64,000 bases of DNA from assembly GCF_013170825.1 (NCBI RefSeq), contig NZ_CP033365.1:1302001-1366000 (forward strand). The letters are read 5' to 3'. The translations under genes and the position numbers were made by a program. The notes beneath the pieces were generated by a model. It saw only the letters and a list, made by a program, of their open reading frames with translations, made no database searches and was not told the DNA's origin. Below are positions 16,251 to 43,800 of this stretch, in pieces (positions within the stretch are counted from its first letter, which is position 1; every line of letters starts with the position of its first letter). The DNA comes from Mesorhizobium sp. NZP2298 (GTDB lineage: Bacteria > Pseudomonadota > Alphaproteobacteria > Rhizobiales > Rhizobiaceae).

Positions 16251-16298
16251 ATGCAATTCCGTACGGAAAACCGCTTTACGCTTTTCCTGGAATTGCAT
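16251..16298. repeat. Short palindromic intergenic element, copy A
   Basis: 48 bp with perfect 10-bp inverted ends (ATGCAATTCC and GGAATTGCAT) around a GGAAAA/TTTTCC inner stem. It lies between the convergent dadA and phospholipase D genes and touches the stop codon of the latter. Related copies are at 39429-39528, 47588-47660, 54779-54828 and 56443-56540. Confidence 0.75.
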
Positions 16299-18457
16299 CA
16301 GAACGCCTGCCTGACCCAGGCCTCGTCGAACAGCAGCCGGTAGGCCCAGGGGATCGTCACCTCGGTGGAAACCGGGTTCGAGTGGGCGAGATAGTCGTCG
16401 TAGATCGGCTTCATCCTGACGTAGAAGGCGGGATCGAGCACCATCATGCCGTTCTCCGAATCGTGGAAGAAGCTGCGGTTGTTGAGGTTGACCGAGGAGA
16501 TGGCGACCAGCCTTTCGTCGATCATCATGATCTTGGAATGCAGCACCACGTCGGGCGCCTTGAATTCGCGGATATTGATGCGGTCGCCATATTTCTCGAC
16601 GAACAGCTTGTTGAGCGCGGTGAGGAACTTGCCGCCAATATCGCCCTTGAGATCGATGCGGCCGACAATGTCGATCTTGACGCCGCGGGCGAGTGCCCGG
16701 TCAAAGGCGTGGGCGAGGCTCGGCGTCAGATTGAGATAGGGGTTGACGATCTGGATATGGTGCTGGGCGGCATCGACCAGCTCGACGAAATAGTCCTCCA
16801 GAGCATGGCCGTCCTCGTAGGGCACGGAAATGAAATGCCGGGCGTTGCCCAGGGGGCGGCCATCGGCGCGAACCGGGATGGAGAAGGGGCGCGCAAGATT
16901 GGTGTCGGCGTCGCGCTGCCACACGGTCGACAGGTGCGCGGCAAGCGTCTCGACCGTCGGCCTGTCGGCGAACTCGATGTCGAAGTCGCTCCAGTTCGAA
17001 TAGTAGTTCAGCGAAAAGCCGTCGGTCTTGCCGTATTGCTCAAGGTTCGGATAGCGCGACAGGTCGATCGGCTGGTGGAACAGGAAGCCGTCATGGATGT
17101 TGCGGCCGCCGATGATGACGCGCGAGCGCGCGGGGTCCTGCGCCAGCGCCGCCAACATCTTGATGTGAAGGACCTTGTGCAGTTGTGAAATCTGCTCGTC
17201 GATCGGCGCGCCATGATCGGCGCGCCAGCGGTATTCCTGCAACTGGACGTTAGGGAACTCGGCCGCCAGGCGGTGCAGCATGGCATCGTCCTTGTCGCGT
17301 TCCAGCACATCGGTGACCATGATGCGCACCTTGGTGCCAAGGGCCGCATGATGGCGAATCAGCCGTTCGATGATGCGGCCGGAAAAGTCCGCCTTGAATT
17401 CCAGCGAGGACAGATAGATCAGCTTCAGCCTTGGCGCCCTGGAGAAATCGAGCGGCAGTTCCGGGTCGCCCTTGTCTATTGCCGCATCGGACAGCGGCGC
17501 GCCCATCAGCGCCTCGACCTTGGCGTTGAAGCCCTCGCGCGACTTGCGCAGCAGCTTGGGTGCGCCGATCGGCATGGCGCAGGTCTGCGACAGCCAGCGG
17601 CTGGCATAGAAGGCGCGCTCAAGCGCGTCGAGGCCGGCGCTGTCGGGAACCGGGCAACGCTGGTAGCGGCTGTCGAAGCTGGCGAGCGCCGGATCGGCGG
17701 TCTCTTCGCGCCGGATGGTGAGCGGTGCGCCTGCCGGGTCAAGGCTGGAACGGATCCTCGCCGTGCAGCGGCTCAGGCTGTCGCCGGGAAACAGGCTGAC
17801 CGCATCGTCCTCGCCCGACAGGCGAAAGCGGAATTCCGCGCCGGCGGCGATGGTGCGGGAGGCTCCGGCGGTCCGGATCGCCAATGCGCCGTCGCAGGTG
17901 CCCTCGATGTCGGCAGGCTGCTTGCCGGCCTGGCGTACGACGATTTCGGTGCTGCGTGCCTGCAGGCCGGAGAAATCGAAAGTCTTGGGTGCCGAGGCGC
18001 GCGCAGCCGCATCGATGTAGAGCGTCTGCCGCGAGACCCGCCAGCGTCCGGCGAAATGGCCTTCGCCGCTGCCGCCACCGGCTGGCCGCAGATGCGCCTT
18101 GGCGACTGGTCCGGCGAGTTGCTGCAGCGTCGAATAGGTCGCCTGGAAGTCGCGATTTTGGACATCGCGGCGGTTGCGCCCGAAAGGGCCGGTGCCGTTG
18201 GCGCGATCCATGGCGCCAAGCTGGTTGTGGGCGAGCAGTGCCAGGAACCGTCTTTCATAGTCGTTGGTGCCGGCATCGCCGAAAAACCGCGACGCTGCCA
18301 CCTGCGGCCCGGGCGTGCTGGCCGACAGCGAGGGCCGTGTGCAGGCCTCCTGGCCAGGCAGGAGGTCGCAGGCATCGCGGCTTGCGCCGGCGCAGCCGGC
18401 AAGGGCGATGAGCACCAGTCCGAACACGGCAGGGAGGGCGGATGCGCGGCGGTTCAC
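16298..18457 (-). CDS. Phospholipase D-family lipoprotein
   Basis: A 719-residue protein. The signal peptide ends in a lipobox (LIALAGC, Cys22), so it is probably a lipoprotein. Two PLD repeats lie in the C-terminal half: HKD1 near residue 431 (LHIKMLAALAQD, then IIGGRNIHDG) and HKD2 near 639 (LHSKIMMIDERL, then SSVNLNNRS). About 330 N-terminal residues match nothing I recognise. PLD-superfamily enzymes hydrolyse or transfer phosphatidyl groups. GTG 18457 overlaps the upstream PLA2-like stop (GTGA), so translation is coupled. The open frame continues upstream only over that gene. Confidence 0.85.
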   Translation of the reverse strand: MNRRASALPAVFGLVLIALAGCAGASRDACDLLPGQEACTRPSLSASTPGPQVAASRFFGDAGTNDYERRFLALLAHNQLGAMDRANGTGPFGRNRRDVQNRDFQATYSTLQQLAGPVAKAHLRPAGGGSGEGHFAGRWRVSRQTLYIDAAARASAPKTFDFSGLQARSTEIVVRQAGKQPADIEGTCDGALAIRTAGASRTIAAGAEFRFRLSGEDDAVSLFPGDSLSRCTARIRSSLDPAGAPLTIRREETADPALASFDSRYQRCPVPDSAGLDALERAFYASRWLSQTCAMPIGAPKLLRKSREGFNAKVEALMGAPLSDAAIDKGDPELPLDFSRAPRLKLIYLSSLEFKADFSGRIIERLIRHHAALGTKVRIMVTDVLERDKDDAMLHRLAAEFPNVQLQEYRWRADHGAPIDEQISQLHKVLHIKMLAALAQDPARSRVIIGGRNIHDGFLFHQPIDLSRYPNLEQYGKTDGFSLNYYSNWSDFDIEFADRPTVETLAAHLSTVWQRDADTNLARPFSIPVRADGRPLGNARHFISVPYEDGHALEDYFVELVDAAQHHIQIVNPYLNLTPSLAHAFDRALARGVKIDIVGRIDLKGDIGGKFLTALNKLFVEKYGDRINIREFKAPDVVLHSKIMMIDERLVAISSVNLNNRSFFHDSENGMMVLDPAFYVRMKPIYDDYLAHSNPVSTEVTIPWAYRLLFDEAWVRQAF

Positions 18458-18897
18458 CCGGCGGCTCCGGCCTTCATGGCGCTCAACTGCGCCGGGTCGC
18501 GCGGCGGCATGAAGCCTTGCGGAAAAACCTTGCAGGCCGGGATGGCGAAAGTGGCGATCAGCAGTTCCGCCTCGCCGCGCATTTTTCGCGGCGCCGTCTT
18601 GTCGTCGCGGATTGCCCTGGCCGAGGCGACAAGCGCGCCGTCGCAGTCGCAATGATTGTGGCGGGCGATATAGCAGGCGTCATGGGTCTGGCATACCGCA
18701 TCGAGGCGGTCGACCGGCCGGGCCGACAGATCGCCGGTGCGGGTGCCGGGGCCGCAGTAATTGCCGATGACGAAGGGCGAGGGGCGGGCCATGACGTAGC
18801 GGATCGGTTTGGGCAATTCGGCTTCCGGCACCTTCGTCCATGGATTGGCGCATGCGGAAACCAAAAGCAGCGGGAGGATGGCAAGAACGGCTCGCAT
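18454..18897 (-). CDS. Phospholipase A2-like lipoprotein
   Basis: A 147-residue exported protein with a lipobox (LLVSAC, Cys16). It has the secreted PLA2 signature: the calcium-loop-like YCGPGTRTG (47-55) and the helix DAVCQTHDACY (67-76) with the His72-Asp73 pair and flanking cysteines. Further cysteines (83, 85, 122) could form disulfides. Known PLA2s cleave the sn-2 ester of phospholipids. The stop overlaps the start of the phospholipase D lipoprotein, so the pair form one operon acting in the envelope. Activity is inferred, not shown. Confidence 0.82.
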   Translation of the reverse strand: MRAVLAILPLLLVSACANPWTKVPEAELPKPIRYVMARPSPFVIGNYCGPGTRTGDLSARPVDRLDAVCQTHDACYIARHNHCDCDGALVASARAIRDDKTAPRKMRGEAELLIATFAIPACKVFPQGFMPPRDPAQLSAMKAGAAG

Positions 18898-19098
18898 TTT
18901 TATCCGCGCCAGCTTTCTGAACGATTTTCCCACCCGGTGGCCCTGCCTAGTGGCCGACGACCGCATGCCTGATGCCACACTGGTCGGTTTTATGGCAAGG
19001 AAAAGGCGGCGTGTGTTGGCGGGCAGTGATATTGTCGCTGCGATACAATCTTCCTGAAGGGCCCACAAACCCGACAGGCATTTGGGGGACAAACAACG

Positions 19099-19665
19099 AT
19101 GCGGATCTACCCTCTCGTTACGATGGTAGGACTTCTTTGCTGCGTTGCAGGAGCCAATGCTGCCGACAAGACCGTTCATGACCGAAACAACGGGGTTTCG
19201 CTGACCTTTCCCGAGGAGTGGATCAATGAGCCGCTTTCCGACGAGGGGATTTTGATGAGTGTAAAATCCAGCGATCAGGGGCTTACCTGTATGGTCTCCG
19301 GCTCTCTCTACAGCCCATCGGGTTCGCCGCCCGATCCGCGCAAGTTCATCGAGGATTGGTCGATGGATACGTGGAAGTGGATGATAGGTAGATCATACAG
19401 CACAGCCAATTTCAGCAATGACAAGCTTGCAAAGTTTCCGGACGGCTACCCCGTGCGGCTTGCCGATCTGGACTTTACGGTTATCGACAAGGATAGGACC
19501 CTGTATGGCCATTCCAGGTTTGCGTTTTCGGTGCGAGGAGTGCGCTACGGCTATGTCAACTGCGCGGTGATGAGCCAGAGCGCCGAGCAGGTGAAGCAGA
19601 TGTGGGCGCCAATGGCGGACAAGGCTGAGCGTGTGGTGAATTCTTTCGTTCTCGACCCGACTTGA
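19099..19665 (+). CDS. Exported protein of unknown function
   Basis: A 188-residue protein with a clear signal peptide (VTMVGLLCCVAGANA/AD). The mature part begins HDRNNGVSLTFPEEW, resembling small periplasmic PsbP/DcrB-like proteins, but the match is only impressionistic. Two cysteines remain after cleavage. TTTGGGGGAC precedes the ATG. It is divergent from the PLA2-like gene with about 200 bp between them, so a shared control region is possible. Base composition is slightly more AT-rich than its neighbours. Confidence 0.65.
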   Translation: MRIYPLVTMVGLLCCVAGANAADKTVHDRNNGVSLTFPEEWINEPLSDEGILMSVKSSDQGLTCMVSGSLYSPSGSPPDPRKFIEDWSMDTWKWMIGRSYSTANFSNDKLAKFPDGYPVRLADLDFTVIDKDRTLYGHSRFAFSVRGVRYGYVNCAVMSQSAEQVKQMWAPMADKAERVVNSFVLDPT

Positions 19666-43484: not shown

Positions 43485-43644
43485 TTTTGCTCCTTCGTTC
43501 ATTCCGGGCGACCGTAAGGAGGCGGCTCGGCCCGCGCAAGAGTGGGGCGGCGATGGCGACGTCGCGAGCCCCGCACGGAAAGAATGGCAACTCTCTGGCG
43601 CTCGGGGGACCATCGGCCTATATTGAGGGAGACGGTCTGCGCTT

Positions 43645-43800
43645 CCCGGCAGGAGAACATTTTCCCCGGGGCCTTAACGATCCTTAGGGAGCTGTCCCTG
43701 GGAAGACCCGTGGGTTTTCTCACACGGCGCCCACCTACTTTGTAGGTTCCCGGGATCGCTCTCTCCACCGGTTGCGTGGATCGTCACTTCTTGCATGCGC
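43645..43800 (+). ncRNA. ssrS: 6S RNA
   Basis: Recognised by sequence and by position just upstream of 5-formyltetrahydrofolate cyclo-ligase, the usual location. The RNA has the alphaproteobacterial 6S pattern: closing pairs CGATCC (43678-43683) with GGATCG (43778-43783); TCCCTGGGAA (43695-43704) with TTCCCGGGA (43747-43755); and a side hairpin ACCTAC-TTT-GTAGGT (43733-43747). 6S RNA mimics an open promoter and sequesters sigma70 RNA polymerase in stationary phase. The ends are estimates of plus or minus 15 bases. Confidence 0.85.

Follow-up and report, generated by a model that had tools for sequence, protein, structure and literature searches.

Why should a Mesorhizobium chromosome carry, side by side, genes for a phospholipase A2 (PLA2)-like and a phospholipase D (PLD)-like protein that both resemble exported lipoproteins? 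The question is raised by a 64,000-nucleotide (nt) stretch of Mesorhizobium sp. NZP2298 (NZ_CP033365.1, positions 1,302,001 to 1,366,000; here called the window), in which an initial annotation, made from the sequence alone, had placed such a pair with a GTGA overlap. Both frames were found there, as follows (window positions).

18454..18897, minus strand: P0002, PLA2-like lipoprotein gene, ATG start, 147 amino acids
16298..18457, minus strand: P0001, PLD-superfamily lipoprotein gene, GTG start, 719 amino acids
18454..18457, minus strand: stop/start overlap GTGA, four bases common to P0002 and P0001
17660..18391, minus strand: N-terminal part of P0001, approximately residues 23 to 266, without a domain match

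The pair is a real, conserved, and apparently lineage-specific two-gene module that brings known enzyme superfamilies together in a new combination; on present evidence, it is not a new kind of system. No publication on a PLA2-PLD pair was found in titles and abstract openings among the matches listed from the open-licence literature. Judged from sequence, the operon may remodel the cell's own outer-membrane lipids by clearing or converting misplaced phospholipids, a reading to which we assign a probability of about 0.45.

Catalytic motifs and selection in the two genes

P0002 contains the Ca loop YCGPG (residues 47 to 51), CQTHDACY (69 to 76, with His72 and Asp73), CDCD (83 to 86, with Asp86), and Cys122, so that the Ca loop, the His-Asp pair, and the core cysteines of secreted PLA2s are all present. 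It shares YCGxG, CxxHDxCY, and CxCD with the secreted PLA2 superfamily (PF00068 and relatives) but differs in being short, bacterial, and poor in cysteines, in its lipobox-like anchor, and in scoring below the PF00068 cut-off (25.9 bits, E value 1.5e-5, against 32.1 bits in Pfam). Weaker matches to PF08398 (20.6 bits, cut-off 23.9) and PF05826 (13.1 bits, cut-off 22) also fell short, and thus no curated family cut-off was passed. PF09056 and PF06951, the families suggested earlier for this protein, were absent from its Pfam listing at E values up to 1. By sequence, the nearest PDB proteins are phospholipases A2 (E value 3e-4), the best of them from venom and pancreas. P0002 also matched an uncharacterized phage protein family, PHROG 11353 (E value 1.7e-12).

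P0001 is a two-domain PLD-superfamily protein with HxK...GGRN at residues 431 to 453 and HxKxxxxD...N at 640 to 657. Its second HKD motif alone is complete; the first, HIKMLAAL, has Leu438 where Asp is expected, and this Leu is invariant in our PLD alignment (A1). Pfam PLDc_2 covers one PLD half (559 to 682), and a PLD active-site motif was recognized at 638 to 662. The claim that both proteins have intact phospholipase signatures therefore holds for the PLA2 His-Asp pair and cysteines but not for two full HKD motifs. As a candidate defence protein, P0001 was rejected, since its PADLOC matches to DrmC and Mko span the shared C-terminal PLD half alone.

These residues are retained among relatives. 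The Ca loop and CxxHDxCY are invariant across the 23 rows of the PLA2 alignment (A2). We also assembled 68 named loci, from Mesorhizobium or unassigned, a set that shares contigs with the 146-genome sample described below and is not independent of it. His72-Asp73 and Tyr47/Cys48/Gly49/Gly51 are kept in 67 of 67 PLA2 copies, and Asp86 in 66 of 67. For the PLD, His640/Lys642/Asp647/Asn657 are kept in 68 of 68 loci, His431 in 67, and Lys433 in 66, with the broken copies L147 and L148 included in each count.

Export signals and a lipobox-like cysteine, as the initial annotation had proposed, were recognized in both proteins (VSAC with Cys16 in P0002; LAGC with Cys22 in P0001), export and lipobox being called by pattern and eye without a signal-peptide predictor. 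The lipobox pattern occurs in 65 of 68 PLD copies. The residue that precedes the PLA2 lipobox cysteine is Ala or Gly in 51 of 67 copies and Asp in 15 (LSDC, which is atypical), while one copy has no lipobox.

An unassigned N-terminal part of the PLD-like protein, previously put at about 330 residues, does exist, but its size is nearer 250, because structural matches to the PLD fold start at about residues 266 to 277 in the longest rows. It begins with low confidence and continues into a predicted beta-rich segment (140 to 250). Conserved cysteines lie within it (Cys188 and Cys231) and just beyond it (Cys268 and Cys293). A whole-protein fold search, which hardly probed this part, found no fold for the N-terminal domain.

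The median ratio of nonsynonymous to synonymous substitution rates (dN/dS) was 0.13 for the PLA2 (253 pairs, 23 rows) and 0.26 for the PLD (325 pairs, 26 rows). Purifying selection thus acts on both frames in the sequences aligned, which marks the two as real genes. Within P0001, the median ratio of nonsynonymous to synonymous polymorphism (pN/pS) was 0.21 in the PLD part and 0.44 to 0.52 in the N-terminal parts, values that would fit a fast-changing exposed region and prove nothing about it.

Distribution in the genus and the chromosomal slot

The genus sample comprised 146 genomes, searched at E values up to 0.001 for P0002 and up to 1e-50 for P0001. P0002 was matched in 96 genomes and P0001 in 95; 93 had both and 48 neither. 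The two genes are adjacent (within 100 nt on the same strand) in 92 of the 93 two-gene genomes, the exception being G295, in which the PLD is broken. A PLA2 match without a PLD match was seen in three genomes (a remnant in G281, weak matches in G278 and G344), and a PLD remnant alone in two (G307 and G322). The findings named in advance as damaging to the idea of a pair, namely loss of catalytic residues or a PLA2-like gene lacking its partner in most relatives, are thus not what the genus displays.

Among the named loci, both genes were matched in 67 of 68, a count that includes L147 with its broken PLD and some loci with a split PLA2 (L108, L144). M. ciceri bv. biserrulae WSM1271 (L098) is one of the strains with the pair. 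In six of the 93 two-gene genomes, one of the genes has a reading frame that is broken or truncated (G251, G328, G283, G295, G325, and G365). In four genomes, this slot contains remnants of one or both genes: G307 (L156, which shares its contig with L148), G322 (L157), G281 (L158), and G295 (L160, on one contig with L147). These suggest loss or decay on more than one occasion, on the assumption that the events were independent.

The slot itself is conserved, with the order lysR-PLA2-PLD-dadA. Across the named loci, lysR lies upstream in all 68 and mmsA in 65, and dadA lies downstream in 66. In 64 of 67 two-gene loci, an in-frame ATG, GTG, or TTG start of the PLD can overlap the TGA stop of the PLA2 by 4 nt, as counted by a script that took the PLD start nearest to the PLA2 stop. 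The GTGA overlap suggests translational coupling of the two genes. One further locus with both genes next to lysR and mmsA is L143, on the contig of G948, which the genome collection assigns to another genus of the family (a sister genus). The gene pair seems to be specific to this lineage, in which it is generally kept but has at times been lost.

Possible roles at the cell surface

By comparing the P0001 family profile with four Escherichia coli PLD lipid enzymes using hhalign, we found ClsC to be the best match (E value 7.2e-14 over 292 columns, collinear, spanning both domains and including HxK and GGRNI). ClsA followed (1.6e-10, 128 columns, C-terminal only), then ClsB (1.3e-8, 297 columns) and PssA (2.2e-8, 262 columns). 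BLASTP gave an E value of 8e-4 against ClsC. P0001 thus leans to ClsC among the four in the profile comparison, the other scores being less clear. It scored far below the cut-offs of the NCBIfam cardiolipin synthase models TIGR04265 (42.8 bits, cut-off 290) and ClsB (23.3 bits, cut-off 281) and of the PssA equivalog NF006946 (46.8 bits, cut-off 314), and no ClsC model was listed in the NCBIfam scan. PssA works at the cytoplasmic side on cytidine diphosphate-diacylglycerol, whereas P0001 bears a predicted export signal. That the PLD acts on nucleic acid rather than lipid, in the manner of PLD3/PLD4 or Nuc, and that the PLA2 is an independent passenger, strikes us as very improbable.

Synthesis of cardiolipin at the bacterial cell surface was reported in 2026 (PMC12846801). 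That paper describes ClsO as a surface-exposed outer-membrane lipoprotein and cardiolipin synthase that consumes misplaced outer-leaflet phospholipids, and as most similar to ClsC according to its authors. P0001 resembles ClsC and ClsO in its collinear two-domain PLD match, with HxK..GGRNI and HxKxxxxD, and ClsO also in its lipoprotein signal; the likeness to ClsO is by description, the sequence comparison having been made with E. coli ClsC. It differs from both in its length of 719 amino acids, with about 250 extra N-terminal residues, and in its partner PLA2 gene. Nor does P0001 have the two HxKxxxxD motifs expected of ClsC and ClsO, since motif 1 lacks Asp, while motif 2 is complete in 68 of 68 loci. 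As an exported, lipobox-bearing PLD that leans to ClsC, P0001 would therefore have a ClsO-like job as its best-supported guess.

The initial annotation had offered three roles: remodeling of the cell's own envelope, action on host or competitor membranes, and release of signalling lipids. Of these, the first is favored because the PLD leans to cardiolipin synthase and both proteins appear to be anchored in the membrane. In a first step, relying on Ca2+ and its His72-Asp73-Asp86 site, the PLA2-like lipoprotein would deacylate outer-membrane phospholipids, either misplaced ones in the outer leaflet or those on the periplasmic face. In a second, the ClsC-related PLD would shift phosphatidyl groups between lipids by means of His431/Lys433 and His640/Lys642, giving cardiolipin or a related lipid, or else would hydrolyze phospholipids.

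Deacylation of misplaced lipids is the task of OMPLA in E. coli. The pair would share with OMPLA/PldA and the Mla system the proposed purpose of handling misplaced outer-leaflet phospholipids, but its proteins are unrelated to theirs. Neither OMPLA (PF02253) nor MlaA (PF04333) was matched in the genome of NZP2298, the E. coli controls being positive for both, and MlaA was undetected in 61 of 61 genomes of the genus. These results are consistent with, and do not prove, a need for another route. If the proposed role is correct, the conserved pairing of a ClsC/ClsO-type relative with a PLA2 would show that outer-leaflet phospholipids are edited in some bacteria by deacylation and head-group exchange, here in a legume symbiont genus in which MlaA has not been detected.

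Some results temper this reading. Against the lean to ClsC, ClsA and ClsB obtain slightly higher HMM (hidden Markov model) scores. Loss of MlaA is weakened as a reason for the pair, since MlaA is undetected regardless of whether the pair is present. In addition, Hyphomicrobiales have another transporter, Mpc (PMC12436622).

In an unlikely, more specific version, the two enzymes would form a surface two-step line. The PLA2 would make lyso-phospholipids from misplaced phosphatidylglycerol (PG), phosphatidylethanolamine, or phosphatidylcholine, and the ClsC-type enzyme without the motif 1 Asp would join lyso-PG or PG to phosphatidyl donors, yielding lyso-cardiolipin or bis(monoacylglycero)phosphate-like lipids of the outer leaflet. 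If true, this would be a Mesorhizobium lipid-synthesis pathway standing in for MlaA and OMPLA.

Mesorhizobium lives in soil and on roots, and a PLA2 and a PLD would together take a phospholipid apart at both ends. The pair, with predicted export signals on both proteins, could accordingly hydrolyze foreign phosphatidylcholine and other phospholipids of plant, fungal, or soil origin at the cell surface, and the fatty acids, choline, and phosphate set free would serve as nutrients. We regard such scavenging as somewhat doubtful and prefer remodeling of the cell's own outer-membrane lipids.

Relatives outside the genus, mobile elements, and flanking features

Secreted-type PLA2s are uncommon in the order, as had been supposed for rhizobia, with P0002 matched in 13 of 249 sampled genomes. 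Six of these belong to the genus; the remaining seven carry a PLA2-like gene that is 33 to 44% identical in the matched part, and none of these seven has a full-length P0001 relative. In one order member (L154:7139-7990), the PLA2-like protein has a lipobox-like start and is encoded downstream of apparent ATP-synthase genes. Conversely, full-length P0001 relatives with lipobox-like starts, 36 to 38% identical, were found beyond the genus in G012 (L150) and G086 (L149), two genomes that gave no P0002 match. The class and phylum surveys scored the best two to three candidates per genome, so their counts are lower bounds and the family is possibly wider: the P0001 family occurs in at least 1 of 289 class genomes (the source genome itself, E value up to 1e-30) and at least 9 of 398 phylum genomes (E value up to 1e-25), G932 being new among the latter. 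No PLA2 was found within the 15 kb around the G932 gene, the rest of that genome not having been searched.

Three alphaproteobacteria (G012, G086, and G932) and a Bdellovibrio plasmid thus have a PLD relative without a neighboring PLA2. The co-occurrence survey that had been suggested finds the genes together in the genus and its sister genus, but the families apart beyond these. The PLD family extends beyond the PLA2-PLD pair, and we infer that the PLA2 joined the PLD in the Mesorhizobium lineage.

Among 72,556 plasmid records, P0002 had 20 matches and P0001 had 27, none spanning 80% of the query; 50,697 phage records gave two and four matches, respectively, all distant. In two phage records, PLA2-like genes are located close to the ends, and others occur on plasmids of staphylococci and enterococci. 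The sole long P0001 match among the plasmid records is the Bdellovibrio protein (577 amino acids, 27% identical over 72% of P0001). Its gene is followed, after a one-base overlap, by a gene for a PlsC-like acyltransferase and condensation-domain protein, possibly a lipid-synthesis neighbor of the PLD relative (both genes at L161:3851-7644). A phage or plasmid origin of the pair was rejected, since the matches are few and distant and the pair sits in a fixed chromosomal slot.

The secreted PLA2 fold is known chiefly from extracellular enzymes, and the pair might be directed at the membranes of competitors, predators, or plants, as a weapon or as a factor in host interaction. The venom and pancreatic matches of P0002, its PHROG 11353 match, and the phage and plasmid occurrences just described, the Bdellovibrio plasmid included, point in that direction, but both proteins have lipobox-like anchors, Pfam found no delivery domain, and the conserved slot showed neither an immunity-like gene nor a secretion gene. 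PLD lipoproteins of this kind were formerly taken for secreted lipases harmful to host membranes, a reading that PMC12846801 argues to be a misannotation. We consider a weapon quite unlikely and remodeling of the cell's own lipids the better account.

Two features lie upstream of the PLA2 gene.

18967..19004, minus strand: conserved block TTTTCCTTGCCATAAAACC...CAGTGTGGCATCAGGC, about 70 to 107 nt upstream of the PLA2 start
19099-19665, plus strand: small gene for a predicted exported protein, divergent from the PLA2 gene

Located in the interval that separates these two divergent genes, the block is strongly conserved, contains a TGCCA...TGGCA dyad, and is a candidate promoter or operator. The small gene is present in the flank of 36 of the 68 named loci, with 55 to 62% identity in L148, L156, and L160. 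Elsewhere in the window, a 6S RNA (RF00013) at 43631-43786 on the plus strand (80.5 bits) is the sole gathering-level Rfam match.
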